Program-made: the position numbers and the translations under genes
Part shown: positions 3,200-18,564 of the stretch, one piece after another
How positions within the stretch are numbered: the stretch's first letter is position 1
Layout of the letters: every line of letters begins with the position of its first letter
The notes under the pieces: model-generated
Seen by the model: only the letters and a program-made list of their open reading frames with translations
Databases searched by the model: none
What the model was told of the DNA's origin: nothing
IMG/VR virus record: IMGVR_UViG_3300020477_000001
Coordinates: 62,001-126,000 of that record
Length of the DNA: 64,000 nt
Origin: a virus
Strand: one strand, 5' to 3'

Positions 3200-3560
3200 C
3201 GTTCAACCAATCTTTTATCGTTTTTGGCTTTTTTTCTTCTACTTTAAAATCTTCTCCAAATTTTTCTTTGCCGACTTCGTTTATAGTTTGCTCTCGAAGG
3301 TTAACTTTTTTAGTTAGCGTGATGTTTTTAATTACTGATTTACCTTCTTCTGTAAAGAACCAACTCAAGTCATTACAGTTTTCGTGAACAGGGAATTCTT
3401 CCCAGAACTTTTCGTCTGGTATCATTTCTAGCATTTTTTTTGCTAGAAACATATTTGTTTTAATTTGCTTAGGGCTGGCCCAAGCACTTGCTTTATCTTT
3501 GTAGAATCTCCCAATAATTTTTTGATATTTATTGGGCTTCCTTTTCTTCATTAAGGTCAA
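3192..3560 (-). CDS. hypothetical protein between recombinase and gmd
   Basis: Not recognised. It is a charged 122-residue protein with a basic N-terminus (KKRKPNKYQKIIGRFYKDK) and a C-terminal segment rich in Lys/Glu that ends IKDWLNDA. Its first codons overlap the 3' end of gmd by 32 bp; the fourth codon is also an ATG (3551), a plausible start that halves the overlap. It overlaps uvsX by 8 bp, so translation of the three is probably coupled. It could be a recombination mediator by position, but no sequence motif shows that. Confidence 0.6.
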   Translation of the reverse strand: MTLMKKRKPNKYQKIIGRFYKDKASAWASPKQIKTNMFLAKKMLEMIPDEKFWEEFPVHENCNDLSWFFTEEGKSVIKNITLTKKVNLREQTINEVGKEKFGEDFKVEEKKPKTIKDWLNDA

Positions 3561-4584
3561 ACTCTACCATCTTTTTGATAAGCATGTCAAAGGAAATCTT
3601 TCTTTCCCAGCCTAATTTTTCTTCAGCTTCACTTGGGTCTCCCAGCAATAGTTCAACTTCTGCTGGTCTATAGAATTTGGGATTTATTTTAATTAAATTT
3701 TGCCCTTTTGGGGAATTATTGTAAAATTTTGTTTTAGTGGGTTCTCCTTCTATTTCTGTCCAGCTTCCAGAAATACCAGCATACTTAAAAGCTTTGCTTG
3801 CGAACTCTTTGATGGTGTGGGTTTCTCCGCTAGCTAAAACGTAATCTTCTGGCTTTTCTTGATTTAGCATTAGCCATACGCCTTTCACGAAGTCCTCGCT
3901 GTCGCTCCAGTCTCTTTGGGAGTAGATGTTGCCGAGTTCTATTGGTTCGATTTTTTCTTCTCTATCTATGCATTTTTTAATTCTGGCGACACCTTTGGTT
4001 ATTTTTCTTGTCACAAATTCTTCGCCTCTTTTGGTTCCTTCATGGTTAAAGAGTATTCCGTGTACCGCGTACATATCATACGACTCTCTGTAAACCTTGA
4101 TGATGTGCCTCGCTGAGCATTTAGAAGCTCCATATGGGCTTCTGGGTCTTAGCGGGTGCTTTATGTCTTGCGGTGTGTATGCCACGTCACCGAATTCTTC
4201 ACTGCTGCCCGCGCTGTAGAATCTGCAATTTGGCTGGAAGTGACGTATTGCTTCTAGGCATCTTGTTACTCCATTGGTGTTTACATCGAAAACGTGAAGA
4301 GGCATGTCCCAGCTAATTCCAACAAAAGAGTTTGCTGCAAAATTAATGAAGTAATCTGGTTGAATTTCTTTTACTAATTTTTGTAAGCTTATTTCGTCTG
4401 TTAGGTCGCCGTATACAAGTTGGAAGTTTGGGTGGTTGAGAAATTTTTTGCAGTTTTTAAAATTTGGATTAGCCACCCGCCTAATCATTCCAAATACCTT
4501 AATGTCATTAAATTCACCTAGCAGGTACTCGCACATATTGGCTCCATCTTGGCCAAGCACACCCGTAACTAAAACTTTTTTCAT
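3529..4584 (-). CDS. gmd: GDP-mannose 4,6-dehydratase
   Basis: Converts GDP-D-mannose to GDP-4-keto-6-deoxy-D-mannose, the first committed step to GDP-L-fucose. A Rossmann NAD(P) site TGVLGQDG lies at 7-14; family genes usually read TGITGQDG. The short-chain dehydrogenase pair Y151/K155 is in SPYGASK, with the SAGSSEEFG active-site loop at 124-132. Length (351 aa) is normal. The stop overlaps the start of 3192-3560, and its own ATG overlaps the stop of the next gene by 4 bp. With Fcl beside it and a phosphomannomutase at 33278, the phage could boost GDP-fucose supply. Confidence 0.95.
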   Translation of the reverse strand: MKKVLVTGVLGQDGANMCEYLLGEFNDIKVFGMIRRVANPNFKNCKKFLNHPNFQLVYGDLTDEISLQKLVKEIQPDYFINFAANSFVGISWDMPLHVFDVNTNGVTRCLEAIRHFQPNCRFYSAGSSEEFGDVAYTPQDIKHPLRPRSPYGASKCSARHIIKVYRESYDMYAVHGILFNHEGTKRGEEFVTRKITKGVARIKKCIDREEKIEPIELGNIYSQRDWSDSEDFVKGVWLMLNQEKPEDYVLASGETHTIKEFASKAFKYAGISGSWTEIEGEPTKTKFYNNSPKGQNLIKINPKFYRPAEVELLLGDPSEAEEKLGWERKISFDMLIKKMVEFDLNEEKEAQ

Positions 4585-5546
4585 ACGCTTCTTAAATTAA
4601 GTTCATTTTTCTGAAACCAATTATAAGTCGATTTTAATCCTTCTTTTAAATTGGTTTTATGATGCCATCCTAGTTTATGTAGTCTCGAACAGTCTAGCAC
4701 CCTTTTTAGAGTACCATCTGGTTTTGATAGATCAAATTTTATTTTTCCTTTATACCCCACCACTTCAGCAATTAGGTGGGCTAGGTTTTTGATCGAGATT
4801 TCTTCGCCAGTTCCTATGTTTATTTGGGACACTCCTTGGTCGTATATATCTTTAAAATTACAATTTTCAAGAATATGCACACATGCGTCAGCTAGGTCTT
4901 TAACGTGCATAAACTCTCTCATCGCTTCGCCAGTACCCCAAACCTCTACTTCTTCTAGTTCTTTTCCTTTAGCTTCGTGAAACCTCCTCATTAAAGCAGG
5001 TAATACGTGTGAGTTTCTTGGGTGGAAGTTGTCGTTTTCTCCGTATAGGTTTGCTGGCATTACTGACAGGAACTCGTCGGCGTGTTGCCTGTGGTAGCTT
5101 TCGCACATCTTGATTCCTGCTATTTTAGCTATAGCATATGGCTCGTTCGTGGGTTCTAGCGGAGACCTTAGTAGGTATTCTTCTTTGATCGGTTGGTCTG
5201 TGAACTTAGGGTAAATGCAAACGCTGCCCAAAAATAAAAGTTTGTCTATCTGGTATTCGTGTGAGTAGTGGATTAAATTATTTTGTATTTGTAGGTTATC
5301 GTAGATAAACTCAGCGCGATATACATTATTAGAATGTATTCCTCCTACTTTAGCGGCGCAGTCTATAACAACGCTGGGCCAATACTGCTTAAAAAAGCCC
5401 TCAGTTTCTGATTGGTTTGTTAGGTCTAGCTCTTGCCGCGTTTTGGTTATTAAGTTTTCGTAACCTTTAGATTTTAGGTTTTCTAGTACGGCAGAGCCGA
5501 CCATACCCTTATGCCCAGCAACAAAAATTTTAGAGTCTTTTTGCAT
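4581..5546 (-). CDS. fcl: GDP-L-fucose synthase
   Basis: Epimerase-reductase that completes GDP-L-fucose synthesis from the Gmd product. The NADP-binding motif GHKGMVG is at 11-17, the catalytic Ser108 is in FLGSVCIYP, and Tyr137/Lys141 are in EPYAIAK. Family-typical blocks AAKVGGI and MPANLYGENDNFHP are intact. At 321 residues it is full length. It overlaps gmd by 4 bp (ATGA-type junction), showing a coupled pair. Cytosolic; the product feeds the fucosyltransferase at 15818. Confidence 0.95.
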   Translation of the reverse strand: MQKDSKIFVAGHKGMVGSAVLENLKSKGYENLITKTRQELDLTNQSETEGFFKQYWPSVVIDCAAKVGGIHSNNVYRAEFIYDNLQIQNNLIHYSHEYQIDKLLFLGSVCIYPKFTDQPIKEEYLLRSPLEPTNEPYAIAKIAGIKMCESYHRQHADEFLSVMPANLYGENDNFHPRNSHVLPALMRRFHEAKGKELEEVEVWGTGEAMREFMHVKDLADACVHILENCNFKDIYDQGVSQINIGTGEEISIKNLAHLIAEVVGYKGKIKFDLSKPDGTLKRVLDCSRLHKLGWHHKTNLKEGLKSTYNWFQKNELNLRSV

Positions 5547-5547
5547 C

Positions 5548-6108
5548 TTATTCTTTCTCGTAAACAGCGATTATGTCGTCTCCTCTTCCTTTTATTTCTC
5601 TTATATCATGCACGGTGAACCTTTCGTCTTTTTGGTATAATTCAAGATACTCTGGGTAGACATCTTCAATTATATAAACGGCTCCAGAGTTTAACTTGGG
5701 TTCTAGTAATTCGAATGTAGCTATAGAAAGGTGGTGTACGTGGGATGCATCTTCTATGACTAAATCTAGCCCAGACTCTGGGAACAGGGGGTCTTCTAGG
5801 ATTTTAGGGCTAGTTTGATCGCTGGGAGAAAGCAGTATAAGATTGTTGGTTTCAGCTTGGTTGATTTCAAGTCTGTGGTAACTTTGATCTAAGCCGTATA
5901 TTTTCGCTTTCTTGAAAGCTCTGCAAAGAAAATGAAGACCTCCGCCTCTTTCCGTTCCGACTTCAAGAATGTTCACTTCTTTGTCGTAAAACTTTTCTAA
6001 GAGTTGTGGGTAGATGTGTTCGTATGCATGGTAGCCAGCTTTGTCTGTTAAGTCTAGTTCGCTTGCCGTAATCATGCATTTCTTGATTTCCTCTTGAACT
6101 TCACTCAT
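5548..6108 (-). CDS. class I SAM-dependent methyltransferase-like protein
   Basis: Probable small Rossmann-fold methyltransferase acting on a sugar or on a glycan. The SAM-binding motif I is NILEVGTERGGGLHF (residues 47-60) and motif II is AKIYGLDQS. DLVIEDASHVHHLS matches the metal-binding pattern seen in the MycE/cephalosporin-hydroxylase-like methyltransferases. It is 186 aa, close to a bare catalytic domain. It overlaps the upstream glycosyltransferase by 8 bp, so it belongs to the glycan operon. The substrate is not visible. Confidence 0.75.
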   Translation of the reverse strand: MSEVQEEIKKCMITASELDLTDKAGYHAYEHIYPQLLEKFYDKEVNILEVGTERGGGLHFLCRAFKKAKIYGLDQSYHRLEINQAETNNLILLSPSDQTSPKILEDPLFPESGLDLVIEDASHVHHLSIATFELLEPKLNSGAVYIIEDVYPEYLELYQKDERFTVHDIREIKGRGDDIIAVYEKE

Positions 6109-7060
6109 TTTCTTTTATAACTCCTTCAATGGTTCTAACGTATTCTTTTGCTAGTTTTTTCCATTCGAAATTTTCTTTTGCATATTTCACGATTTCTTTT
6201 CTGTTTTCAACCGAAACTTTTCTGTTTCTTTCTATAATGCCTCTCAGTTGATCAGTGTTGTTCATTTCCTCTTCGCTTACTACGTCAATGAAGGGAAGCG
6301 AAAGGTCTAGGTTGGCGGTTGCTTGTTCAGATATTACTAAGCCTAGTCCAGCCATAAGACCCTCTAAGCAAGAAAGAGAGTGAGCTTCTCCGTCGCTTAG
6401 CAGAACCATGTTCGCGTAATCTGTTAGGCTTTCATAGACTTTACTCTTTTCCCATTCCCCTAGGTAGTCTGGGCTACCGTAGTCAAAGTCTGGGTCTTGT
6501 TCGTTCCCTGCAAAGTCAATATTAAGGTTTTTGCCTTGCAGGAAGGACTGTTTTTTTCTTGGGTCGATTTTCGCCAAGCAAATTGACCTGTCTGGTTTCT
6601 GGCATTTCGAATCAAAAAGAAACATATTTGAATTAGCGCCATTTGGCGTTATCTTAATTTTTTCTTCTGGTATTGACAGTTCTCGGATGTATGTCTCCTT
6701 GATTCCCTCTGATAATGCAAATATATGATAATCTATGTTTTTGTAGGCATTGAAGATTTGATTATAGGCTCCGTGCTTTTCTGGTTGCTCTAGGTATGCA
6801 TAGTGACTTGTGACTGCTTTGTTTTTACAGTTAATGAATCTCATCATCGGTACATAGTCATCGTATTGCAAATGTACAAAATCCAAGTCTCTCGAATTAA
6901 TACTCTCTATTACTCCTTGAAAGTCTCTTGAGTTATATATATAGACCTCGTGCCCAAGGTCGATCAAAGCCTCTGAGTAGTCCCAGATTAAAGACTCTAT
7001 GGCTCCCCAGCCTTTTGGTGGGATAGGCATAAAACCCGGTCCGATGATTCCTATTTTCAT
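6101..7060 (-). CDS. GT4-like glycosyltransferase, paralogue of the next gene
   Basis: GT-B fold retaining glycosyltransferase. The N-terminus MKIGIIGPGFMPIPPKGWGA has the glycine-rich loop and the PP.GWG(A) pattern of GT4 enzymes that use nucleotide sugars. A phosphate-site block KITPNGANSNMF follows, and the C-terminal SDGEAHSLSCLEGLMAGLG is the E-x7-E-like donor motif. Length is 319 aa, the same as its neighbour at 7057, with which it shares the start, the DYANMVLLS block and the end, so the two arose by tandem duplication. It overlaps the next gene by 4 bp. Confidence 0.85.
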   Translation of the reverse strand: MKIGIIGPGFMPIPPKGWGAIESLIWDYSEALIDLGHEVYIYNSRDFQGVIESINSRDLDFVHLQYDDYVPMMRFINCKNKAVTSHYAYLEQPEKHGAYNQIFNAYKNIDYHIFALSEGIKETYIRELSIPEEKIKITPNGANSNMFLFDSKCQKPDRSICLAKIDPRKKQSFLQGKNLNIDFAGNEQDPDFDYGSPDYLGEWEKSKVYESLTDYANMVLLSDGEAHSLSCLEGLMAGLGLVISEQATANLDLSLPFIDVVSEEEMNNTDQLRGIIERNRKVSVENRKEIVKYAKENFEWKKLAKEYVRTIEGVIKENE

Positions 7061-8016
7061 TTTTTAATTTTATTTATATTATCTATGTAGACATCAACTA
7101 GGCCGTCCCAAGAAAAATTCTCTAAAGCATATTTTCTTATGTCATTTCTTATGGGTATACATCTTTCTCTGTTTTCTTTAATAACTGAGTTTATGTAATC
7201 TAGGTCGTCTATCTTTGCCTCTGGTATTAAGTCGATAAATGGTAAGTCAAGATTTAATTCAGAACAAGCATATTCTGAGAAAACTATACCTAATCCACAG
7301 GCCAGAGCCTCTTTGATTACTAAGGGCGTGCCATTTTCTCCTGTACTTAACAAAACCATATTCGCGTAGTTTGTGAGCATCGAGAAAAGTTTTTCCCTAG
7401 GCTTGATTTCTCCAAGGTAGTTTGGATTGGAGGTGTCAAAGCTGGTGTTGTGGAATTTGCCAATAAAATCCACGCCTTCTAGGGATTGAAATTTGTATTG
7501 CCTTTTTCTTTCTTCTATTTTTGCTAAATAAACAGATTTATTTGGTAATTCGCAGTGAGTATTAAACGACCAGTTATCGAAGTTGACACCATTTTCTAGG
7601 ATTGAGCATGAATTCGCTTTTGCCCCGCACTCTACGAAGGCATCTCTATCCTTCTTAGAGATACAGAAATTATGAAAACCCTCGTTTCTGGTTAGGAAAT
7701 AAAAAATATGCCCATAGTTATCGGCTTCGTGCTTTTCGAGTTGATCTACATACGGGTAGTGGCTGCTTATGCCTTTGCTTTCGCATTCAATGTGGGGTAT
7801 TAGGTCGTAGAATTGATCATAGTGAACGTGAACAAAGTCCCAGTTTTCAGCGTTGCATTCATTTAGTATTTCATTTCTGTCTGGGGTGTTAATAATCTTT
7901 ACTTCGTGCCCCTTCTTCTCTAGCGTGCAGTAATAGTCCCACATCAAGGATTCAACTGCACCCCATCCATCTGGTGGTATTGGTAATATACCCGGTCCTA
8001 TCAAGCAGATTTTCAT
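7057..8016 (-). CDS. GT4-like glycosyltransferase, paralogue of 6101
   Basis: Sister of the 6101 gene: MKICLIGPGILPIPPDGWGA at the start, SILENGVNFDNW in the middle, SVYLAKIEERKRQ, and STGENGTPLVIKEALACGLG as the donor-binding block. It is 319 aa. The two differ enough in the acceptor half to suggest different linkages. Start and stop overlap neighbours by 4 bp on each side, so expression is coupled to the whole operon. Predicted cytosolic, acting on a lipid- or nucleotide-linked glycan; the acceptor is unknown. Confidence 0.85.
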   Translation of the reverse strand: MKICLIGPGILPIPPDGWGAVESLMWDYYCTLEKKGHEVKIINTPDRNEILNECNAENWDFVHVHYDQFYDLIPHIECESKGISSHYPYVDQLEKHEADNYGHIFYFLTRNEGFHNFCISKKDRDAFVECGAKANSCSILENGVNFDNWSFNTHCELPNKSVYLAKIEERKRQYKFQSLEGVDFIGKFHNTSFDTSNPNYLGEIKPREKLFSMLTNYANMVLLSTGENGTPLVIKEALACGLGIVFSEYACSELNLDLPFIDLIPEAKIDDLDYINSVIKENRERCIPIRNDIRKYALENFSWDGLVDVYIDNINKIKK

Positions 8017-8864
8017 AATCTAAATAATTCTTTTATTTTAGTTTTTGTTGGTTCTTCGTAGTGCTCGCTTGGGTCTCTTCTATGTGGGTCCGCATGTAGG
8101 AATATTACGTCCTTCATTTCCTCTTCGAACGGGTTCTTGCCTTTTAGGGTTCCGTCAGTGACTTCTAATTCCATGTGCTCTGGACCCATTGAGCAGTGAT
8201 TTAGTCTGCCACCTAGATCAACTATTTCTTTTTCCGCTATCGCGCTCAAAAAGACTTCATCAGTGATTCCCCGAATGTATTCTTTATAGTTACCATCTGA
8301 ATCTTTATAAACAGAATCGTAGGACTCAAGGACTTTTGAAATTAGTTCTCTGTTTTTGTCTGAGTTTTTATATAGAAATACTCCCCCCGCGTAAAAATTA
8401 CTGTTTATATCTGCGTTGAATGTTAGGAATAGTTCGTGGAAAAAATCTTTGTTTTCTGAAGGCACTGCTTTTTCAAAGAAATCTCTTAGCGTAGGTACGT
8501 AAAAATGCTTTGCTGCTCCTACCCCCTCTCCAATTTCTTCAAACAGTTCCTCAAATCTATTGTTTGCAAGAGCGGTGTCTGTGTCTACATAAACTACGTA
8601 TTCTGTTTCTGCCTCCAGTACGGCTACGTACTTCTGCCTCCAGAACTGGAAGCCGACTTTTTTCTGCGACAAATCTAAGTTGTCTTTCGACTCTAAGATT
8701 TTAACGTTGGGGTAATCGACTGGAAACTTATTGTTTAAATCCAAAACCAAAAAGTTAGTTTCACCTAGAAGGTCCGTTATACTATCTATGCTTGTTTTAA
8801 GGTTCGAATAATGCTCGTCACCTCCTCCGACTATATATACAAATGTGATTTTTTTAGAGTCCAT
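8013..8864 (-). CDS. GT-A fold glycosyltransferase
   Basis: Probable GT8/GT6-like GT-A enzyme. The metal-binding DxD is VYVDTDTALANN, preceded by an N-terminal strand KITFVYIVGGGDEHYSN. It also has the AAKHFYVPTL and NFYAGGVFLYKN segments typical of this fold, and a late HCSMGPEHME. Length 283 aa. No membrane segment. It sits between two GT-B genes, with a 4-bp overlap at its 3' end and directly abutting the next start. Donor and acceptor are not visible. Confidence 0.75.
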   Translation of the reverse strand: MDSKKITFVYIVGGGDEHYSNLKTSIDSITDLLGETNFLVLDLNNKFPVDYPNVKILESKDNLDLSQKKVGFQFWRQKYVAVLEAETEYVVYVDTDTALANNRFEELFEEIGEGVGAAKHFYVPTLRDFFEKAVPSENKDFFHELFLTFNADINSNFYAGGVFLYKNSDKNRELISKVLESYDSVYKDSDGNYKEYIRGITDEVFLSAIAEKEIVDLGGRLNHCSMGPEHMELEVTDGTLKGKNPFEEEMKDVIFLHADPHRRDPSEHYEEPTKTKIKELFRL

Positions 8865-9835
8865 TATAAGACCTTTAATATTGATTCGATTCTGTTTAGA
8901 TATGTATGATTGTCTTTAACGTATTTCATGCATTCTTCAATAAAAGCGTAGTCTTCTCTTTGAGCCATAGCGTCATGAAAAAGCTGGGCTGGGTCTTCCT
9001 GTAACAGGCAGTGCCCCTCTAGTTCACTGTGAATCTCCTTGGAGTTTGTGATCGGTAGGTGACCCCAGCTAGCTGACTTGAATACCCTACACGGAACGTA
9101 GCCGTTTCTCAAGTGCTCTGGACCCCTTACGTCTGCCGCTAGTATTGATAACTTTGTTCTTTTTTGAACATCTTCCTCTGGGAGTGGATGTCTGAATGGG
9201 TCGTTATGGTAAAAGGGTATACCTGCTTTCCTGCATTCCATTATGAATTGAGAGAATGTGCTAAAGTTTTCGCATCTACCGTCTGGGCTCAGATTTCCGC
9301 AAAAATGTATAACTCTTTCTCTTTCTCTTTTAATTTCTTTAAAATTAAATTCATGAGGTAATAGACTTGCTCCCCAAGTTATGTAGAACTTGTCGTAGTC
9401 TGCGATTTCATACTCATGGTAGTCATTTTTGTATTTTATGGATTTGTTTGACTTTGGCTCGAAGTAGCAAGAGTTCCCGACTTTTTGCGCTTTGGATTTA
9501 TCTAAGGTAAAATCGTATATGTGGTCTTTATGCCATATGTGATTATATCTGAAGTCTATAAATCTCTTTACTTCAGCGTTGATGTATTTTGCTGGGTCTG
9601 GGGGGCCATGTACTAGGTAGGTGCTTGATTTGACTAGCGGAATTTTTGAGTCAGCAAATCCCTCAGTCCAAAAAATACAGTCCTCCCAGTCGAAGTCTTT
9701 GGGGTAGTCCTTGTCGTGGAACCAGAACACTTCGTAGCCTAGGTACGAGAACGCTTTAAAGAAAGCTTCTTGTATGTAGGACATCGTGTGGGAGTGAAGC
9801 GGATGTCCCCAAATAATTATTTTTTGCTTATGCAT
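8864..9835 (-). CDS. putative glycosyltransferase, 323 aa
   Basis: GT-B-like protein with the C-terminal block RNGYVPCRVFKSASWGHLP followed by TNSKEIHSELEG, as in exostosin/GT10-like phage and bacterial transferases where a Lys/Ser-containing segment binds the donor phosphate. The N-terminal half (IIIWGHPLHSHTMSYIQEAF) is a Rossmann-like start. No signal peptide or transmembrane segment. It abuts both neighbours with 0-1 bp spacing. Function as a glycosyltransferase is inferred from the fold signature and operon context. Confidence 0.65.
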   Translation of the reverse strand: MHKQKIIIWGHPLHSHTMSYIQEAFFKAFSYLGYEVFWFHDKDYPKDFDWEDCIFWTEGFADSKIPLVKSSTYLVHGPPDPAKYINAEVKRFIDFRYNHIWHKDHIYDFTLDKSKAQKVGNSCYFEPKSNKSIKYKNDYHEYEIADYDKFYITWGASLLPHEFNFKEIKRERERVIHFCGNLSPDGRCENFSTFSQFIMECRKAGIPFYHNDPFRHPLPEEDVQKRTKLSILAADVRGPEHLRNGYVPCRVFKSASWGHLPITNSKEIHSELEGHCLLQEDPAQLFHDAMAQREDYAFIEECMKYVKDNHTYLNRIESILKVL

Positions 9836-10585
9836 TTAGAATCTAGGTAGTGCTAGGGGCCAGTTATGGCCTTGTATTTTAATGCCAAAGAAATCCAAGG
9901 TCTTCCGAATTAATAGCTCATTGCAGTAAGCCCCTGTGTCCTTAACGCATTCTTGCAACGCGAATTCAAACGTGTTAAAAACGCTGGCGTAAGCATCCAT
10001 GTTTTTACTGGAGCTTAGGTTGAGCCAGTCTGAGATCATGCCGTCTGGTTGATTCATGTCCTTGTAATGGACAAGATTAGGGTCGTAGTCTGGAGCATTA
10101 ATTTTTATATACGATATCACGTCTGTTCTTATTTTAATTACGTAATCATATTTAAAGTCATTTTCTAATTCATATGTTTTCTTAAGAATGCTGCTTTTAA
10201 GTAAGCTATACTTAGCGCTGTAATTGTCTCTTATTGTTCTGAATCTGAAGTTTGGTTCTTCTGGGTTGTCTATGGCTCCCTCGAAATATCTTTGTAATGA
10301 TTCATCGAAGTTAATAGTGGAATTCAAAAAGGTCTTGGGCTTTTCTACTTTTAGTGATATTGGCTTGTATAGCTCTTTAAATTTCTCTATAGAGTCGTTT
10401 TTGATTCTTTGATTCTTCCAGCCTCCAGCGCCTCCGTGTTTGTAGGGCTCTGTGCATAGTTCTTCGCTGAACCAAAGGTGAGCAAATACGTCTGCATTAT
10501 TAGGGTCTATCACGTTTTCCTTCATTAATGGGAAACATTCTTCAATAAACCTAGGTTGACCGCAAACTATTATAGCTGTTTTCAT
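9836..10585 (-). CDS. glycosyltransferase-like protein, first of three paralogues
   Basis: One of three adjacent homologous genes (9836, 10586, 11512). The shared signature is an N-terminal A(I/L)x(V/F)xGxPRxxxECxxx, then DVFAHLW, and a central DYVIKIRTDV, which is the DxD-like metal site region. Family members resemble WavE/LPS-synthesis-type transferases in marine phages and bacteria. This copy is 249 aa and ends ALPRF. Likely to transfer sugars in the cytosol. It abuts the next gene (one base between stop and start). Confidence 0.65.
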   Translation of the reverse strand: MKTAIIVCGQPRFIEECFPLMKENVIDPNNADVFAHLWFSEELCTEPYKHGGAGGWKNQRIKNDSIEKFKELYKPISLKVEKPKTFLNSTINFDESLQRYFEGAIDNPEEPNFRFRTIRDNYSAKYSLLKSSILKKTYELENDFKYDYVIKIRTDVISYIKINAPDYDPNLVHYKDMNQPDGMISDWLNLSSSKNMDAYASVFNTFEFALQECVKDTGAYCNELLIRKTLDFFGIKIQGHNWPLALPRF

Positions 10586-11515
10586 TTAAAACTTATTGTC
10601 TCCTTTAAAACCTCTTTTAGTTTTATTTGATCGTCTTTCTTCTGCATCTCTAGGGAATTTGAAGGTTTTTTTGCCTAGAGGAAAAACGTAATTTGGCCAA
10701 ATAAAATTTAACTCCTTAAATAAATAGTAGGGCAATGCAGTGATTTTTTTAACGTCGCATTGTATTTTACTGTTTACAGATAGATGCTTTTCAAGTTGTA
10801 AATGTATTGGTAATTCAATGTAGTCATAGATGTTATCAAAAAACCTCGTATATGAATCCATATTTTTTAAATTTCCGCAAGCAAATAAATCAGAAAATGG
10901 ATAATCTGAACCTAAGTAGCCACCTGTCCCTCCAAAAACGATGCCATTTGAGCAGTATAGGGTATCTTTATCGAGTTTATCGTATTCTAGTCTGTATTTT
11001 ATTGCTAGGTCTGTTCTTGCTAGGATGTAAAAGTCATATTTTTCTTCTGATTTAATCGCTAGTTCTAAGCTGTTTTTTTTTGATTTCCATTGGCTGTATT
11101 CGTTAAAAAAAACTCTATTAGTTCTAACGCCGCTCCAAAGAGGCCCGTTTAGGTCTCTTCCAAGGACTCCAAAATCAGTAATAGGATTCGGGGATTCGCG
11201 CTTTTGTGCATCTTCGTACTGTGAGAAATCAAATTCTTCGATGTCTAAAGGTTTTTCGGTGAGTATTTTTTGGGGTAAATAAAGGTCTTCAAAAATTTTA
11301 TTTTCATTTTCTTGAAATTTTCTCATTAATCGCCCTTCTCTGGCATGTGGGCTTTTTTCGTGGTAGGCTGTTTTTCCGAGCCTATCTTCCCACCAGAGGT
11401 GAGCGTAAACGTCCACCTTTACACCTTCTGTACTTCTTATTATAGTATCAAAGATGTTCACGTAACAAGCTTCTACCTCTCTTGGGAAGCCAAAAAAACA
11501 AAGCGCTACTTTCAT
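10586..11515 (-). CDS. glycosyltransferase-like protein, second of three paralogues
   Basis: Same fold as its neighbours: MKVALCFFGFPREVEACYVN at the start, VDVYAHLWWED, and DFYILARTDLAIKY in the centre. At 309 aa it is the longest copy, with an extra basic C-terminal tail rich in Arg/Lys (PRDAEERRSNKTKRGFKGDN). The G-Q-P-R of its sisters is G-F-P-R here. It overlaps the upstream copy by 4 bp. Predicted cytosolic. Confidence 0.65.
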   Translation of the reverse strand: MKVALCFFGFPREVEACYVNIFDTIIRSTEGVKVDVYAHLWWEDRLGKTAYHEKSPHAREGRLMRKFQENENKIFEDLYLPQKILTEKPLDIEEFDFSQYEDAQKRESPNPITDFGVLGRDLNGPLWSGVRTNRVFFNEYSQWKSKKNSLELAIKSEEKYDFYILARTDLAIKYRLEYDKLDKDTLYCSNGIVFGGTGGYLGSDYPFSDLFACGNLKNMDSYTRFFDNIYDYIELPIHLQLEKHLSVNSKIQCDVKKITALPYYLFKELNFIWPNYVFPLGKKTFKFPRDAEERRSNKTKRGFKGDNKF

Positions 11516-12255
11516 TTTTTATCAAAAAATATCCTCCTAGGCATCCCGTCTAGATTGACGAACTCGTCTTTCTTAGGCATGAAGTAGTATATTTCTGGTC
11601 CTATTGCGTAGGTGTCACATCTTGTGTCTTCTAAGTGGAACCTAATCAAGTCGTGCATATGCGGGAATCCTCTTTCAATATAGCTGTCAAACTCTTCGTA
11701 AATTTGGCAATACTTCTGCATGTTTGATTTGGAGCCACAAGCAAACCAGTCTGAGAAAAATCTGTCCCAGCCAGCGGTTCTGCCATCACCAATATATAGA
11801 ATGTCAGAGTTTAGCTCTTCGTATTTGAACTTCTTGGGGAAAAGTAGGTCAGTGCGGCATCTTACATAAAAGTCATAACTTTCATTCGAAGATAGTGCTA
11901 AATCAAAGCTTTTTGCTATCGAATAGTACGCGCTCTTCATATTGAAGTAGCATTTTTCTAAGTCTGACAGCGTCGGGCAGACTCCTATCCTGTCGGAATT
12001 ACAAAATGAGGTGTCGAATTTTATTTGGTTTTCGAATACGCTTTTTTCGGGTTTATAAAGTTTTGCGAATTCTTCATTTGCTTTTTCTAAAAACTTTACC
12101 GAGTTGGGCTTGTACTCTGTGCCAGCCATGTCCTCGCTCCACCAAAAATGGGCATAAACATCTACATCGTAACCATCAATTAAGTTTCTATTGATGTTTT
12201 CGTAGCATTCCTTTAGGTCTCTGGGCTGACCCGAAAAACAAAGAGCTATTTTCAA
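11512..12255 (-). CDS. glycosyltransferase-like protein, third of three paralogues
   Basis: Third copy: MKIALCFSGQPRDLKECYEN, DVDVYAHFWWSEDM, and DFYVRCRTDLLFPKKF. It is 247 aa, matching the 9836 copy in length. The conserved W-W-S-E-D after the DVYAH motif and the RTDL block mark a shared active site, while the C-terminal halves have diverged. It overlaps the next gene by 4 bp at each end. The tandem set likely builds consecutive linkages of one glycan. Confidence 0.65.
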   Translation of the reverse strand: MKIALCFSGQPRDLKECYENINRNLIDGYDVDVYAHFWWSEDMAGTEYKPNSVKFLEKANEEFAKLYKPEKSVFENQIKFDTSFCNSDRIGVCPTLSDLEKCYFNMKSAYYSIAKSFDLALSSNESYDFYVRCRTDLLFPKKFKYEELNSDILYIGDGRTAGWDRFFSDWFACGSKSNMQKYCQIYEEFDSYIERGFPHMHDLIRFHLEDTRCDTYAIGPEIYYFMPKKDEFVNLDGMPRRIFFDKK

Positions 12256-13304
12256 AGTAAGTCCTCCAAGTTTGAGTCGTTTCTTTTAATGTTAATGGCT
12301 TCGCAGCTAGGGTACGGATTACTTTTAGCGTAATCATTAATTATGTATCTTTTGCAATGAAATAGATCGAAGATGATTTTGTGATACTTCAACCCGATCC
12401 TTTCTAGTTGGGATTTGGTTTCTTTTTTGTATCCCCTTTTTCTGGATGTTGTGATTACAACTTGGGCTTTTCCAGAATCGTATAGCTCATTAATTTTTTT
12501 GACGTTAGCAGGAATCGCATCCGTTTCTCCCCAGTATGGAGGAAAGTGTTGTGCGCTATTTTCCACAAGGGTTCCGTCTAAGTCAATGAAGATGCACTTA
12601 TATTTAGATTTAAAATGATTCCAGTCGTCTATTGTCCCCCAGTCGATGAAGTTATTAGTATCGATAGTGGTAAAGCTTTCGCCCTCAATTATCATTTTAT
12701 AAATAACATGAGAGACATAGAGGTCGTCGTAGTGCTTAATCTTGTTGTAGTATTTTCTGAAGTCTCTTGCGTTTTTAAATCCGTAGCACCCCGTGCAGAA
12801 GTCGCTGCTGATTACCTGTTTTTCAACTATGTTGTTAATGTTGTTGTTTTCATCGCAAGAAACGTAGCTTTTGTTGCATGGGTTAAGTAATGTGTGGTTA
12901 TTTAGGTTAGATGTAGATACGAAATTAGAGGCGGTGATTTTAATTTCAAAAAAATTGTCGCAATCTTTAGAGCAGAAAAAGCCTGTTATTTTTTCTTTTT
13001 TTATTGCCTCGAATATTGTCTCTGGTTGACTTAGGGTTGGCTTGCTTAAGTAAGTAATCTTAAAGTTCTTAATGTTGAGTCTAGAGAATTCTTTTTTGAT
13101 TCCTTCGCTAAATTTATATTTACGCTCGTGTTCTTTAAGGCAAACTAGGTACACGCAATCAAAGAAGTCTAAGTTCAGACCTTTGATCGATTCGGTTATC
13201 ATTAGGCTCCCACTGGGGTGAGTGGAGAGCCATTTGGGTTTTACGTCGGGATACCTGCTGGATTTACCCGCTACCGGAAGGATTAAGCTTCTCATGTTTC
13301 TCAT
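12252..13304 (-). CDS. fused sugar nucleotidyltransferase-HAD phosphatase
   Basis: Two enzymes in one chain of 350 residues. The N-terminal part (1-230) begins LILPVAGKSSRYPDVKPKWL, the G-x-G-x-R-x(n)-P-K signature of nucleotide-sugar pyrophosphorylases. The C-terminal part starts at about 237 with CIFIDLDGTLVEN, the HAD motif I, followed by VVITTSRKRG (motif II) and YIINDYAKSNP (motif IV). It could make an activated sugar and dephosphorylate its precursor. Similar fusions occur in capsule-gene clusters. Coupled to neighbours by 4-bp overlaps. Confidence 0.75.
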   Translation of the reverse strand: MRNMRSLILPVAGKSSRYPDVKPKWLSTHPSGSLMITESIKGLNLDFFDCVYLVCLKEHERKYKFSEGIKKEFSRLNIKNFKITYLSKPTLSQPETIFEAIKKEKITGFFCSKDCDNFFEIKITASNFVSTSNLNNHTLLNPCNKSYVSCDENNNINNIVEKQVISSDFCTGCYGFKNARDFRKYYNKIKHYDDLYVSHVIYKMIIEGESFTTIDTNNFIDWGTIDDWNHFKSKYKCIFIDLDGTLVENSAQHFPPYWGETDAIPANVKKINELYDSGKAQVVITTSRKRGYKKETKSQLERIGLKYHKIIFDLFHCKRYIINDYAKSNPYPSCEAINIKRNDSNLEDLL

Positions 13305-14323
13305 TTTATATTCTCTAGTACGTAGTTGTACACCCTGCTAATCCCCTCCTCAATGTTGAATTTCGGCTCCCAGTTTAGCTCTTTTTTACACTTTGACATA
13401 TCTGCTATAGAGTTTTTGTGTACTTCCTGTTGTATTCTGTGGGTAGAAAGTTGATTGGTGCAGTTGAATAAAGATTCATATTTATCCCAGTAGTTTTCGG
13501 GTTTTTTGAATTTAGCTTCAATATCTTTACCAGAAACTTCTAAAAATATTTGGTACAGCTTCGGTACTGAGAACCCTGCTCCCGTTCCTATGTTGTAGAT
13601 TCCCATTTGATCGCTTTTAGCGGCTATCTCTGTGACGAGGGATATTAGGTCTTCTACAAAAATATAGTCTCTCTCTGCTGTCGATTGATTGTATAACGTA
13701 GGGGCTTCGTTCTTTGCTAGGCATTTTGCTACGTATCCAGTGAATGGCGGTTGCTTTCTTAGGAAATCTTGGTGGGCTCCGTAGACATTAAAGAATCTGA
13801 GTACAGCTATGCTCATTCCGTAGTTATTAATGTAAGATAGGCATAGATTTTCCCCCGCCCTTTTAGTCATTGCGTAGGTAAGGTCTGGATTTACTGGGTC
13901 GTGTTCGGCGTACCCTGTACTGTACCCTCTTTTCTGTGTTGACTTGGTGTTTTCGTAAACCGCTGAAGTTGACGCGAAGAGGATTCGCGGTACGTTCTTT
14001 TTTCTGCAAGCTTCTAGCACGCTCGCTAGCCCACCTACATTTACACTATAGGCTCTCTGGGGGTCTGTTTGGCAGTCGGGTAGGGGTGCGATTCCAGCTA
14101 GGTGAATAACTAGCTCGCAGTCAGAAAGGGTATTTTCTAGCTCTGGCTGATTTCTTACGTCGCATTCGTGTAGCGTTCCGAAAGTTTTACCATCTATCGT
14201 GAGGTTGTCTTTTTGCCCGTAGCTAAAGTCGTCCAAAAGATGAACGTCGTGACCTAAGTTGTGGTAGTAATGGCCTAGTTGGGAGCCTATAAACCCTGCA
14301 CCTCCTGTGATAACTACCTTCAT
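13301..14323 (-). CDS. NAD-dependent sugar epimerase/dehydratase
   Basis: Extended short-chain dehydrogenase acting on nucleotide sugars. TGGAGFIGSQLGHYY is the NAD-binding loop, AGIAPLPD follows, ASTSAVYEN contains the catalytic Ser/Thr and TYAMTKRAGEN gives Tyr-x3-Lys. The C-terminal blocks LRFFNVYG and ERDYIFVEDL are standard for UDP-glucose 4-epimerase-like enzymes. Length 340 aa. The 5' end overlaps the kinase gene by 4 bp. Substrate is unknown; a UDP-hexose is most likely. Confidence 0.88.
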   Translation of the reverse strand: MKVVITGGAGFIGSQLGHYYHNLGHDVHLLDDFSYGQKDNLTIDGKTFGTLHECDVRNQPELENTLSDCELVIHLAGIAPLPDCQTDPQRAYSVNVGGLASVLEACRKKNVPRILFASTSAVYENTKSTQKRGYSTGYAEHDPVNPDLTYAMTKRAGENLCLSYINNYGMSIAVLRFFNVYGAHQDFLRKQPPFTGYVAKCLAKNEAPTLYNQSTAERDYIFVEDLISLVTEIAAKSDQMGIYNIGTGAGFSVPKLYQIFLEVSGKDIEAKFKKPENYWDKYESLFNCTNQLSTHRIQQEVHKNSIADMSKCKKELNWEPKFNIEEGISRVYNYVLENIK

Positions 14324-15111
14324 AACTTGCTAACTATATCAGAGAGAACGCCTCTTAGGTAGTTAATTTTTTTAAGTTTTCTGGTGTACGGAAGAATTCT
14401 GGCGAAGTTTAAAAATTGAAATAAAAGGTAGTATTTCTTATAGCTTTTGATACTTAAAAAACTGTCATGTAGTCTGACATCCAAGTAGTCTAGGCTTATA
14501 TTTATTTTATTTTTATCGAAGCTTTTTTGGTATAGGTCTAGTGACCACTTATAGCGAGTGTCCTGTCTTAATTTGGCTACATCTATTAGTGGCGTTTCAA
14601 TGAATCCATCTAAGAAGTCAATTAGTATTAGCTTGTTTTTTTGGAATATTATATTACTTAGAGTTAGGTCTCCATGGCATGTGCCTATTGGAATCTCTAG
14701 TTTGTCCGGTAGGAGGTCTATGAACTTTAGTAGGCAGAGTATTTTTTTCTTGTTGTATATTTGTAGTATTTTATTCTTGATTACTTTAGAGTCGATCTCT
14801 TGAGTCTCGGAAAAAGATATGCTCTCTTGCACATAAGAGAATATATCCTCTGAAAATTTGTCTATTTCTTTTTTACCCGCTTCGGAGAGGAACGAGACGA
14901 AGTCCTTACCTGCTGCGTACTCCATGGAAAAAGAGTTTTCGGTGCTGTCTAGCACTTTGGGTGTGCTTAGGAATTTAAGGCCGCTTTTGAATTTGCTTTG
15001 CTTGAGCCTTTGCTTCTTGAGTCTGTCGTTGTACTGGAAACTTGGCGAGGTTTTAATTACCTTGCCATTTTTAAGTTCTACTTCGCATCCAGAAAAACCC
15101 TTGAGGTTCAT
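14320..15111 (-). CDS. APH/choline-kinase-fold phosphotransferase
   Basis: Small-molecule kinase of the aminoglycoside-phosphotransferase fold. The Brenner-type catalytic loop is TCHGDLTLSNIIF, and the metal-binding motif is LIDFLDGFIETPLIDVAKL. Length 263 aa. In glycan clusters such enzymes phosphorylate sugars, choline or ethanolamine. Here it stands between an epimerase and the GT6 gene, with 4-bp overlaps both sides, so a role in preparing or decorating the glycan is likelier than antibiotic resistance. Confidence 0.7.
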   Translation of the reverse strand: MNLKGFSGCEVELKNGKVIKTSPSFQYNDRLKKQRLKQSKFKSGLKFLSTPKVLDSTENSFSMEYAAGKDFVSFLSEAGKKEIDKFSEDIFSYVQESISFSETQEIDSKVIKNKILQIYNKKKILCLLKFIDLLPDKLEIPIGTCHGDLTLSNIIFQKNKLILIDFLDGFIETPLIDVAKLRQDTRYKWSLDLYQKSFDKNKINISLDYLDVRLHDSFLSIKSYKKYYLLFQFLNFARILPYTRKLKKINYLRGVLSDIVSKL

Positions 15112-15833
15112 TTTACTCCTTTAAACCTAGGGTAGTCCTTCATGTTTTTGTCCTTGTGTATGAGTAGTTTTGGGAAAACCATTTCCCAGTTCTCTGGGTA
15201 TGCGAACCCGCTGTGGAAAACCGTTACCCTGTCTTTAAAGTCTATGAATCCTTTGTTTAGGTGAGATTCGTCGTGCCACCTCGCTACAACGTTAACCGAC
15301 AGGTCGTCGTCAATTCTTTGCTTCATTAAATTAATGAATTCTAATATGTCTGGGTTCTTGCCACCCCAGAAGCAGCCTTGCTTGTAAGCTGTGTTTTCAT
15401 TCGTTGTGCCAGCGGGCACGCAAGCCAGAGACTCTTCATTTGTTTCGAAATCTGCTAAACCGTATATGGCTTGACCGGGGTGCTGGACTCCAAATAGGCT
15501 ATGATACATGGAGAGCCAGTCTTCTGATATTTCATCGACGGCCTCCATGTCTGAGTCAATGAAAATTATATCTGAGTACTCTTTAAGTTTTTCTTCCTGT
15601 TTTAGTATGTAGTGAAACCTTTTAAGTGTTACGTATGGCCATTCTTCGTGTTCTATTTCAGTGATGATTAAGTTGTCTACCTTTAGTGAGTCGTGCTCTG
15701 GCTGATCTGTGAACACAAAAAAATCTTTGTGAGTTTTGGGTAGAAAAAATTTATTAATAGAACTGTAATAAGATTCAAAAAAATCTATATACTTCTTAGT
15801 TCCGATGAAGATTATGGCTATACGAGGTTCCAT
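15108..15833 (-). CDS. GT6-family (ABO-like) alpha-1,3-glycosyltransferase
   Basis: Member of CAZy family GT6, which includes the human ABO transferases. Diagnostic blocks are EWPYVTLKRFHYIL (65-78), the metal site FIDSDM with DSD at 93-95, the QGCFWGG segment (152-158) and RWHDESHLNK (185-194), nearly identical to the vertebrate pattern. At 241 aa it is a bare catalytic domain without stem or membrane anchor. Many bacterial GT6 enzymes have NxN instead of DxD; this one keeps DxD. It overlaps the adjacent GT11 gene by 16 bp. The family adds Gal or GalNAc to alpha-1,2-fucosylated galactose. Confidence 0.9.
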   Translation of the reverse strand: MEPRIAIIFIGTKKYIDFFESYYSSINKFFLPKTHKDFFVFTDQPEHDSLKVDNLIITEIEHEEWPYVTLKRFHYILKQEEKLKEYSDIIFIDSDMEAVDEISEDWLSMYHSLFGVQHPGQAIYGLADFETNEESLACVPAGTTNENTAYKQGCFWGGKNPDILEFINLMKQRIDDDLSVNVVARWHDESHLNKGFIDFKDRVTVFHSGFAYPENWEMVFPKLLIHKDKNMKDYPRFKGVK

Positions 15834-16657
15834 GTTGTCGGTATTAGGTCTTTTATGTAGTTATACCCGTTGTCTAGGTTGTATATTTTGGGGGTATGTT
15901 CGTCTGTAAACCAGTTCTTGGGGGCGCATACCTTCTTGTTCGTGTTCTTATTTAGGTATGCTGCCCACCAGCTAAAGCTAGAGTTGCATATGATTGAGTC
16001 TTTGAATTTACTCATAAGCGCAAACTCAATTAAATCCTCTCTGAGGAAGTGCTGTGACTCATTTTCGGAGTCTTGAGTGGTAGGGTTTTTTGAGTGTTCT
16101 CTTTCAGATATGAATTCGCAGTTGTATGAAGAGAAGGTTTCTTTGCACCAGTCTATATCATCAGAGAATACGGCAAATTTACTGCACCCGATGAAGTTGA
16201 GACAGTTATTGTAATAGTCTACACTTTGTGATTCATATACCGCCGAAAGGGTTTCGTAGTCACCTCTTCTTACATGGACGAACGCTGAGCATTCTCTTAG
16301 TGTGTCTGAGTACTTTTCGGAAATATAGTTTTCTATTTCGCTAGAGAATTCGAAAATTTTTCTAATTTCTTTTTCTGAGTTTTCAAAATACTTATAAGAT
16401 TGAAAGTATCCATTAAGACCTATTGGCCTAACTGGCTCTGGTAACTTTATCTCTTGGTAGTTGCAGTATTTTTCTTGTAGAATGTCTCTTACTAGTATTT
16501 TCGCTGTTGGGAGGCGATTTTTAAAAAATTGCTGATAATCCCATTCGGGAAAAATAGCTAACTGGTTGCTGGTTTTAGCAATACCAATTGTGGAGGATAT
16601 TTGGAATAATTGATTACCAAGTCTTCCTAATTTTCCTAGGTTTGGAAAGGATATCAT
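15818..16657 (-). CDS. GT11 alpha-1,2-fucosyltransferase
   Basis: GDP-fucose-dependent alpha-1,2-fucosyltransferase, like FUT1/FUT2, FutC and WbsJ. The N-terminal GRLGNQLFQ lies at 11-19 and the GDP-fucose motif HVRRGDY at 128-134. A late SFSWWAAYLN block is the third family motif. Length 279 aa, no membrane segment. Its 3' end overlaps GT6 by 16 bp, the tightest coupling in the cluster, which suits two consecutive steps. The donor can come from Gmd/Fcl in the same operon. Confidence 0.9.
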   Translation of the reverse strand: MISFPNLGKLGRLGNQLFQISSTIGIAKTSNQLAIFPEWDYQQFFKNRLPTAKILVRDILQEKYCNYQEIKLPEPVRPIGLNGYFQSYKYFENSEKEIRKIFEFSSEIENYISEKYSDTLRECSAFVHVRRGDYETLSAVYESQSVDYYNNCLNFIGCSKFAVFSDDIDWCKETFSSYNCEFISEREHSKNPTTQDSENESQHFLREDLIEFALMSKFKDSIICNSSFSWWAAYLNKNTNKKVCAPKNWFTDEHTPKIYNLDNGYNYIKDLIPTTWNLV

Positions 16658-16658
16658 T

Positions 16659-17612
16659 TTAGATGTTCTCCTCTATCCATTTAAATAGCTCGCACTTCGG
16701 TTCCCAGCCAAGCATTTTTTTTGCCTTGGAGTTGTCGCACAACGTTTTCCTTGGTTCAAATCTTGGGTCTATGTGTTTAATTTCTCCTCCAATTTTTTTT
16801 GCAATGTCGAGAATCTTGTAGTCTTTTCCGTTACCTATATTGAATACGTGGAAGCCTTCGTCTGTTTCTGGTCGCGTTGCGGCTAGTATATTCGCGTCAC
16901 AGATATCTCTGACATTAACGAAGTCTCTGGACTGTAGGCCATCCCCAGTAATAGTTAAAGGTTTGCCTTCATTCTTCAATCTCTTAAAAATACCCATAAT
17001 TGGGACATATGGACCTTCAGTCGGCTGTCTGTATCCGTAGGCATTAAAGTACCTCAAAGCTACGCTGTTTAATTTAAATAAATTAAAAAATAATTGCAAG
17101 TATACCTCCCCGATGAGCTTGTGTGCAGCGTATGGGCTAAGCGGGTCACTCGGCATGTCTTCTGGTGTGGGGAGCGTTTTTGCGTCACCGAGTACTGCGC
17201 TTGTCGAGCTAAAGATAACTTTTTGTACTTGCGCTTTTTTTGCAGCCAAGAAAACATTTAGTGAGCCGTTGACATTGACATCATGGAATGTGACGGGGTC
17301 TTGTATTGACTGCTCAACCCTTGGTCTGGCAGCTAAGTGGAAAACGTATTTTGAGTTGCGGAAAACCTTGTATAGCTCTTGAACGCCGTCTCTTATGTCC
17401 ATTTTGTGGATAGTGACCATATCTGGATCGCTCTCTGACTCTTTTATATTTGCACCTAGCACTACTTGATTCGGGAAGTGCAAGGGCAAGCCTTCGTAAG
17501 TTGAGTAATCGTCAACCACATGTACGTCGTACCCTAGGTCAAAGAGTTTTTTCGTGAGGTTACTTCCTATGAATCCGCAGCCTCCAGTAACTATAACCTT
17601 GTCTTTAGCCAT
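16659..17612 (-). CDS. NAD-dependent epimerase (UDP-glucose 4-epimerase-like)
   Basis: SDR nucleotide-sugar epimerase. It has the NAD site TGGCGFIGSNLTKKL, the catalytic FSSTSAVLGDAK and SPYAAHKLIGE (Tyr-x3-Lys), and the ALRYFNAYG and SRDFVNVRDI blocks. Length 317 aa. It differs clearly from the epimerase at 13301, so the two probably make different sugars; UDP-GlcNAc/GalNAc interconversion would provide the GT6 donor. It overlaps the next gene by 8 bp. Confidence 0.88.
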   Translation of the reverse strand: MAKDKVIVTGGCGFIGSNLTKKLFDLGYDVHVVDDYSTYEGLPLHFPNQVVLGANIKESESDPDMVTIHKMDIRDGVQELYKVFRNSKYVFHLAARPRVEQSIQDPVTFHDVNVNGSLNVFLAAKKAQVQKVIFSSTSAVLGDAKTLPTPEDMPSDPLSPYAAHKLIGEVYLQLFFNLFKLNSVALRYFNAYGYRQPTEGPYVPIMGIFKRLKNEGKPLTITGDGLQSRDFVNVRDICDANILAATRPETDEGFHVFNIGNGKDYKILDIAKKIGGEIKHIDPRFEPRKTLCDNSKAKKMLGWEPKCELFKWIEENI

Positions 17613-18564
17613 ATTTCTTTACCATTTTGTTGTATAGGGGGCATCCACTTTCATACCAGTCTACAGAGTCTCTAAGTATGCCTCCGTATTTGGAAAGTAG
17701 ATTTTGGTATGCTATTGTTATGAAAAAGTTTCCGAAATGGACTCTCAGCCCATATCTTAGTACGTCTGCACATTCCGCTTCCATTCCCTTGTGTAGGAAA
17801 GATTCTGCAAATTTAGCTATATCTTCTGGTGTGTTTTCCCAGTTTAGCTGGGTTACCCAGTTTTGACTTCTGTTTTCTCTTCTGTATCTAACCACCCTGC
17901 CGACAGATGTGTATTTGGCGTCATCGTGAAAGGATACCATTTTGTGATTGTGTTTGATTTTGAATCCAGATTCCCTGCACCTTAAAGCGAAGTCAGTATC
18001 TTCGTTGTGCTTACCCTTCCTGTAATCTTCCATGTTTGACATGTTGTAGAATCCGTAAGTCTCAGAATCCCACTGTAACCTTTCGAATACATGCCTTTTC
18101 ATGACCCAAGCCATACCTCCAGACATGTAGATATAATCTGAATCCTCTTCTGGCTCCAGCATTACGTGACCCCTTTCGGGGTCTAAATAGCAGCAGTGAT
18201 CCCAGAATCTAGTGCCATCTGGTAGCTTTACTCGCGATGTTAGTATGTCGAAGTCGTTTCCGTATTTAGTGAACTCAGAATACCAATCTTCAGACAAAAA
18301 CATGTCATCGTCTAAAACCAGAATATTATCAAATTTGGCTGCTGAGCACGCTAGGTTTCTCATTTCTGCCAGATTTCCAGAATCAGCAGCTTTTTTAGCG
18401 TTAACGAATTTATACTCTCCTTTTTGCTTCCAGATTCCAGAGATTATGATTTCAAAGTTAGGAATATTTTGGGAAATTATGGAGTTTATTACCCTGTTTG
18501 TTTGTACGGGTTTTTTTCCATTCGTTATGATTATGCAAGATAAATCCATAAATGTATAGCTCAA
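17605..18564 (-). CDS. GT2-family glycosyltransferase
   Basis: Inverting GT-A glycosyltransferase. It starts with LSCIIITNGKKPVQTNRVIN and has the GT2 metal site NILVLDDDMFLSEDW. A later MSGGMAWVMKRHVFERLQWD (the acceptor loop) and EDTDFALRCRESG (the catalytic ED motif) complete the fold. Length 319 aa; the seventh codon is also an ATG and could be the true start. No transmembrane helix, so soluble. It is the first gene of the minus-strand sugar operon. Confidence 0.85.
   Translation of the reverse strand: MSYTFMDLSCIIITNGKKPVQTNRVINSIISQNIPNFEIIISGIWKQKGEYKFVNAKKAADSGNLAEMRNLACSAAKFDNILVLDDDMFLSEDWYSEFTKYGNDFDILTSRVKLPDGTRFWDHCCYLDPERGHVMLEPEEDSDYIYMSGGMAWVMKRHVFERLQWDSETYGFYNMSNMEDYRKGKHNEDTDFALRCRESGFKIKHNHKMVSFHDDAKYTSVGRVVRYRRENRSQNWVTQLNWENTPEDIAKFAESFLHKGMEAECADVLRYGLRVHFGNFFITIAYQNLLSKYGGILRDSVDWYESGCPLYNKMVKKYG

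Follow-up and report, generated by a model that had tools for sequence, protein, structure and literature searches.

In Escherichia coli O86, the GT11 fucosyltransferase WbwK and the GT6 glycosyltransferase WbnI act on the same galactose, GT11 first and then GT6, to give a B-type antigen (PMC4202792). The GT6 enzyme of Bacteroides ovatus, BoGT6a, is an α-1,3-GalNAc transferase that acts on Fuc-α-1,2-Gal (PDB 4AYJ). Not every GT11 enzyme forms the α-1,2 linkage; one member, HhFT2, is an α-1,3 enzyme (PMC4202792). The characterized vertebrate enzymes have the donor triads LGG or AGG (A), MGA (B), GGA (Forssman), and HAA (α-Gal) (PMC6351642), and a rule has been proposed by which Gly at ABO position 266 or 268 is required for GalNAc transfer (PMC4692239). 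In phages, GT6 had been reported in two cyanophages by 2014 (PMC3961637); that report and the annotation of P-SSM2 bear out the mention of a cyanophage GT6 in the initial annotation of this DNA. Gmd, GDP-fucose synthase, and GT11 were reported in cyanophage S-SCSM1 in 2022 (PMC9602691). Adjacent GT11 and GT6 genes are present in GenBank cyanophage records without comment, and a search of the openly licensed literature found no paper on GT11–GT6 pairing, its asymmetry, or the Gln-Gly-Cys pocket described below. The purpose of many glycosyltransferases carried by viruses of aquatic microbes is unknown; in the locus described here a precursor pathway, a fucosyltransferase, and a capping enzyme share one operon.

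The DNA analyzed (the window, 64,000 nucleotides) is part of an IMG/VR virus record of 158,301 bp, from an uncultivated bacterial virus. The matches listed for its TerL were Lactococcus and Clostridioides phages, with 23−27% identity across a portion of the protein; the host groups of those matches included no cyanomyovirus. When 25 kb of the window was compared with phage records by megablast, only tRNA matches were obtained. Judged by TerL and DNA identity, the virus does not belong to the Kyanoviridae (T4-like cyanophages). Relatives of its TerL were found in at least 339 uncultivated viral contigs, and the protein is far from those of cultured phages; this virus lineage is abundant and uncultured. 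A tmRNA gene lies at 1676−2080 (−), beside a RecA/UvsX-like gene (Rfam RF00023, 131 bits); it encodes the 31-residue tag ANNNVDMAPSVAEADAILAKHGWAEEAAVAA, and its DNA had no match in phage records. A transposase-family gene is located at 46130−47638 (+; PHROG 506), which we take to be of the IS200/IS605 OrfB/TnpB type.

The initial annotation had described adjacent GT11 and GT6 genes at 15108−16657. Both ORFs are found there on the (−) strand with an overlap of 16 bp (15818−15833), the genome carries only one of each, and both family assignments held, with profile scores above the cut-offs and folds that agree. For GT6, Pfam PF03414 matched with E = 4e-17 and 62.4 bits, relative to a gathering cut-off of 25, and PHROG profiles fit better than Pfam (PHROG 3317, 1.4e-60). 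The top sequence match in the PDB was BoGT6a (E = 6.7e-26), with human ABO at about 3e-16. In a Foldseek search with the AF2 model (pLDDT 94.4) the best match was also BoGT6a (E = 6e-23, TM 0.85−0.89), and human ABO gave a TM of about 0.8; the model predicts a GT-A fold of the ABO/BoGT6a type. The DxD and WHDESHLNK motifs recognized earlier are D93-S-D95 and residues 186−194, the latter including the catalytic E189. The PF03414 score, the fold, and the DxD together with the Glu of WHDE place the protein in CAZy family GT6. It scored 175.4 bits with the narrower NCBIfam model NF041524 (family 6 glucosyltransferase), relative to a cut-off of 250, and was not filed under that model. No transmembrane segment was found in GT6 by a simple hydropathy scan. 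In a quick tree it clustered with uncultivated viral sequences, and viral and bacterial GT6 sequences were almost separated (two changes).

Donor contacts were examined using the BoGT6a−UDP-GalNAc contacts (PMC3961637) as the list. Residues T12, Y15, W65, T69, R72, H118, G153, W186-H187-D188-E189, and K229 of the window GT6 are retained from BoGT6a. The changes are the replacement of the Asn pair by D93/D95 (with S94 between), of N69 by V68, and of T134 by D128, and a different donor triad, Q152-G153-C154. With these contact residues kept and D93/D95 present, GT6 looks like a metal-dependent, active enzyme.

For GT11, PF01531 matched with E = 4.6e-19 and 69.2 bits (cut-off 23.9) and PHROG 2644 with 2.6e-47, and the GT11 signature HVRRGD (HxRRxD) was found at residue 128. 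Because a sequence search of the PDB found no relative (the value obtained, E = 0.19, is that of chance), a fold search was used. The best Foldseek matches of the AF2 model (pLDDT 90.4) were fucosyltransferases only, namely FUT8, NodZ, POFUT1, and plant FUT1, with a TM of about 0.5−0.6. The PF01531 score, the HxRRxD motif, and the GDP-fucose-using GT-B fold place this protein in CAZy family GT11.

The pair lies within seventeen co-directional genes that extend from 18564 to 3529 on the (−) strand, each separated from the next by −16 to +1 bp (Table 1). Promoter and terminator scans gave signals at the level of shuffled sequence. The initial annotation had overlooked the terminal Gmd and GDP-L-fucose synthase genes of this operon and the epimerase upstream of GT11. 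Gmd matched PF16363 (5.5e-107) and PDB 2z1m (7.3e-81) and has SSEEFG and YGASK motifs; the synthase (Fcl) matched the E. coli GDP-fucose synthetase (GFS) in the PDB (1.1e-113) and has the YAIAK (Y-x3-K) motif. Because their top NCBIfam matches fell below the strict equivalog cut-offs (TIGR01472, 340.7 bits vs. 415 for Gmd; NF047922, 461 bits vs. a curated 500 for Fcl), the two names rest on the best-family match plus the kept motifs. Together these enzymes are predicted to make GDP-L-fucose, the donor of GT11. The epimerase matched PDB entries 6dnt (3.9e-43), 4zrm (1.3e-41), and WbpP (1.6e-39), and its top NCBIfam match was galE, below the cut-off. It is kin to the UDP-glucose and UDP-GlcNAc 4-epimerases and is a plausible candidate for the source of a donor of the UDP-Gal or UDP-GalNAc type for GT6. 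The divergent gene pair beyond the operon probably belongs to the same glycan region. Also outside the main operon, a Capsule_synth (PF05159) homologue is located at 24723−25802 (−), beside a glycosyltransferase-like gene.

Table 1 Features of the glycan region, with viral polymerase and TerL genes and bacterial fusion ORFs from other loci (L numbers)
Feature	Coordinates	Strand	Basis or remark
Gmd (GDP-mannose 4,6-dehydratase)	3529..4584	−	351 aa; PF16363, PDB 2z1m, TIGR01472
Fcl/WcaG (GDP-L-fucose synthase)	4581..5546	−	321 aa; PDB match, NF047922, YAIAK
Methyltransferase	5548-6108	−	Operon middle (5548..15111)
Two PHROG_33732 glycosyltransferases	6101-8016	−	Operon middle
Two genes without family assignment	8013-9835	−	Operon middle
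Three tandem PHROG_13607 paralogues	9836-12255	−	Operon middle; PHROG family of unknown function
HAD-domain protein	12252-13304	−	Operon middle
SDR gene	13301-14323	−	Operon middle
Kinase-like gene	14320-15111	−	Operon middle
GT6 (ABO-like) glycosyltransferase	15108..15833	−	241 aa; PF03414, PHROG 3317, BoGT6a match, AF2/Foldseek
GT11 fucosyltransferase	15818..16657	−	279 aa; PF01531, PHROG 2644, AF2/Foldseek
NAD-dependent sugar-nucleotide epimerase (SDR)	16659..17612	−	PF01370 1.4e-51; directly upstream of GT11
GT2-like glycosyltransferase	17605..18564	−	First operon gene; PF13641 1.3e-5; synteny
Polysaccharide pyruvyl transferase-like	18992-19843	+	PF04230 1.6e-13; divergent pair with 19840-20763
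GT2/GT92-like	19840-20763	+	PF13704 3.9e-8; divergent pair
DNA polymerase III alpha-type polymerase	L012:15160-17775		No close cultured relative
TerL	L015:998-2827		No close cultured relative
GT6–GT11 fusion ORF	L104:7647-9587		Bacterial; N-terminal GT6, C-terminal GT11
GT6–GT11 fusion ORF	L127:7998-9626		Bacterial; N-terminal GT6, C-terminal GT11
GT6–GT11 fusion ORF	L141:2098-3738		Bacterial; N-terminal GT6, C-terminal GT11

The reading we favor, with moderate confidence, is that a cytoplasmic operon provides GDP-fucose for fucosylation by GT11, after which GT6 adds an α-1,3 cap to a host surface glycan. We infer the exact linkages, donor, acceptor, and purpose as follows: Gmd and GDP-L-fucose synthase would convert host GDP-mannose to GDP-L-fucose. 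GT11 would transfer the fucose, most likely in α-1,2 linkage, onto a terminal galactose-type residue. GT6, using a metal held via its DxD, would then add a retaining α-1,3 cap to the fucosylated residue, from UDP-Gal or a different donor that lacks an acetamido group, so that the product would be a branched, H-then-B-like cap. Because no flippase, polymerase, or exporter was recognized among the families found in the operon, the cap would most likely be placed on a host LPS or capsule precursor that is exported by the host machinery. The surface of the infected cell would thereby be altered, for example so that adsorption of rival phages is blocked. Candidate purposes of the system are superinfection exclusion, masking of receptors, and coating of the virion.

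The same two-step chemistry might instead be directed at the virion, with soluble enzymes acting in the cytoplasm to decorate tail or capsid proteins that have just been synthesized. A simple hydropathy scan found no transmembrane segment in any of the seventeen operon products, and no window ORF of at least 200 aa with three or more such segments; for glycan proteins of this kind, in an operon with no flippase or exporter family, a soluble acceptor would suffice. Long ORFs of structural size and a collagen-like tail fiber are also present elsewhere in the record. We nevertheless regard a virion target as unlikely, because the size of the operon, its several sugar-nucleotide enzymes, the pyruvyl transferase-like neighbor, and the Capsule_synth homologue look more like surface-polysaccharide building, and because the usual interpretation of LPS genes in phages is that they modify the host surface (PMC7029224, PMC9602691).

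The donor pocket bears on the nature of the cap. Gln-Gly-Cys occupies ABO positions 266−268 in the window GT6 and in 80/80 readable viral GT6s (the best 80 of 511 candidates), and DxD is likewise present in 80/80 of them. The register of the triad was confirmed by alignment with a human AABB chimera (YYMGAFFGG vs. AYKQGCFWGG). Among the cyanophage reference GT6s, seven of eight have Gln-Gly-Cys; the exception, P-SSM2, has Ala-Gly-Gly, like BoGT6a. The bacterial GT6 sequences mostly have NxN and the triads MGG, AGG, or CGG. Having Q152 and C154, the window GT6 lacks the Gly at ABO position 266 or 268 that would mark an A transferase. Under this donor rule, which was proposed for vertebrate enzymes (PMC4692239) and is applied here to viral GT6, GalNAc transfer (A-type) appears unlikely, Gal or a different sugar being the likelier donor, and the triad is compatible with B-type (UDP-Gal) transfer. 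The initial annotation had called GT11 and GT6 the pair that builds A/B caps; the families are supported, the sequential pairing is supported by asymmetric linkage, fusions, and synteny (below), a fucose supply is supported by the Gmd and GDP-fucose synthase genes of the operon, and the A (GalNAc) form is disfavored by Gln-Gly-Cys. As a separate observation, the P-SSM2 GT6 gene is located at L009:10262−10957, and its AGG triad is that of a GalNAc transferase.

The Gln-Gly-Cys triad is uncharacterized, so a sugar other than Gal and GalNAc could be the donor. In an alternative reading, GT11 and GT6 are real but their product is not ABO-like: a new branched cap would be formed through another GT11 linkage (e.g., α-1,3) or another acceptor, together with such a donor for GT6. 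Consistent with this, the triad is unlike all of those characterized in vertebrates (LGG, AGG, MGA, GGA, and HAA; PMC6351642), GT11 includes the α-1,3 enzyme HhFT2, the window GT11 is only 28−44% identical to other viral GT11s, and two further SDR enzymes could supply unusual donors. Opposing it, the GT6–GT11 fusions and the bacterial pairing, including the characterized O86 pair, argue for a shared Fuc-Gal intermediate (PMC4202792). We consider a non-ABO product rather improbable; a blood-group-like architecture is well supported, and an ABO-like mechanism is supported.

We then turn to the linkage of the two genes in viruses and bacteria. A same-strand GT11 gene was within 3 kb of GT6 in 70/73 cases and directly upstream in 51/73, the 73 being those viral GT6 genes, from the best 80 of 511 candidates, that had room upstream. 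After dereplication at 70% identity, GT11 was near 32 of 34 viral GT6 genes and adjacent in 24 (also from the best 80 of 511). The profile used to find these loci was built from members linked to GT11, and the loci share ancestry. In the reverse test, GT6 was within 3 kb in only 5 of a sample of 48 GT11-centered viral loci among the matches listed. Loci centered on TerL had GT11 in 0/80, a weak control. Because these loci are short and outside glycan regions, loci centered on fucose synthase were chosen as the control: GT11 was present in 8/8 that contained GT6 and in 5/44 that did not (Fisher p = 1.7e-6, kinship ignored). GTx-centered loci had flanks too short for judging GT11. In bacteria, 56 of 77 GT6 loci had GT11, with adjacent pairs in both gene orders, and in Hoeflea, Planctomycetota, and Kuenenia (L104, L127, and L141, respectively) one ORF encodes both domains, GT6 first and GT11 second. 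In the related virus 3300030329_005540, the GT2-epimerase-GT11-GT6 and Fcl-Gmd ends of the operon are conserved at 44−73% identity (the epimerase 52% and the GT2-like protein 50% identical, in the same place), and several genes between these ends have no counterpart. Some viral GT6 domains are located C-terminally in ORFs of about 560−580 aa (L062:4902−6605, L037:7050−8714, and L085:6966−8714), the N-terminal part of which resembles a glycosyltransferase by eye.

Like the gene identities, the operon structure, and the purifying selection (below), the dependence of GT6 on GT11, and not vice versa, is shown computationally; it is expected if the GT11 product is the GT6 substrate. The pairing is widespread in aquatic viruses. 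The enzymes very probably act in sequence, with GT6 probably capping the fucosylated sugar made by GT11. GT11 and GT6 could be mere neighbors in a glycosyltransferase-rich phage glycan cluster, with no sequential action, given that the operon contains many glycosyltransferases and that neighboring genes are swapped between phages. This explanation is quite improbable, because the directional linkage is near-universal and persists after dereplication, the control loci picked independently of GT6 and GT11 (fucose synthase) agree, adjacency is kept despite the reversed order in many bacteria, and fusions exist.

Purifying selection on both genes is strong. Relative to a near relative from another metagenome (L016), GT6 had a pN of 0.009, a pS of 0.49, and a dN/dS of 0.011, and the 3' part of GT11 (the stretch available) had a dN/dS of 0.028; this pair of viruses differs at about 49−65% of synonymous sites. 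That GT6 and GT11 are decayed or unexpressed passenger genes is hardly credible, since the ORFs are intact with conserved catalytic residues, and both dN/dS values are low.

Returning to sequential capping of a host surface glycan by GT11 and GT6, the dependence of GT6 on GT11 predicts the substrate order and the Gln-Gly-Cys pocket predicts the donor. More tentatively, and with less confidence than we place in that reading, the viral GT6 lineage (DxD, Gln-Gly-Cys, nearly always beside GT11) may be a distinct donor-specificity class of the ABO family that caps a fucosylated glycan with a non-GalNAc sugar, possibly neither A nor B, and that contributes to widespread viral alteration of host surfaces beyond the T4-like cyanophages. 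If sequential capping by GT11 and GT6 is correct, ABO-type caps would be a common viral product, and the system would provide a naturally occurring, soluble form of the ABO donor pocket for use in enzymology and in glycan synthesis.

Among known systems, BoGT6a is the closest solved structure to the window GT6 in both sequence and fold and has most donor contacts in common with it; the window enzyme differs in having DxD in place of NxN, QGC in place of AGG, and V68 in place of N69. Bacterial GT6 enzymes are usually NxN and metal-independent, in contrast to DxD with QGC in the window, which would also set the O86 enzyme apart. Human GTA and GTB share the GT6 fold, DxD, and WHDESHLN with the window GT6, whereas their triads are LGG (A) or MGA (B) and the window enzyme has no membrane anchor. 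Cyanophage S-SCSM1 resembles the window in having Gmd, GDP-fucose synthase, and an α-1,2-fucosyltransferase in one phage, and GT6 is not named in the excerpt of its description (PMC9602691). GT11–GT6 pairs are found in the Kyanoviridae phages Bellamy (201−202), SynMITS9220M01, DSL-LC02, S-8S55, and B23, and with two genes between in P-SSM2 and ACG-2014f. As in the window, the GT11 gene precedes that for GT6 on the same strand, and GT6 has DxD and, except in P-SSM2, QGC. The clusters of P-SSM2, ACG-2014f, and DSL-LC02 also include gmd and fcl-type genes, and Bellamy, SynMITS9220M01, and S-8S55 have an epimerase immediately before GT11. The GT6 and GT11 proteins of these phages are, however, only 33−40% identical to those of the window, whose virus lacks a close cultured relative and has a TerL unrelated to theirs. 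The window is thus a further viral glycan cluster of a known type, outside the T4-like cyanophages; what is new here is the directional dependence of GT6 on GT11, the occurrence of the pair in a non-Kyanoviridae virus, and the combination of DxD and QGC in viral GT6s.
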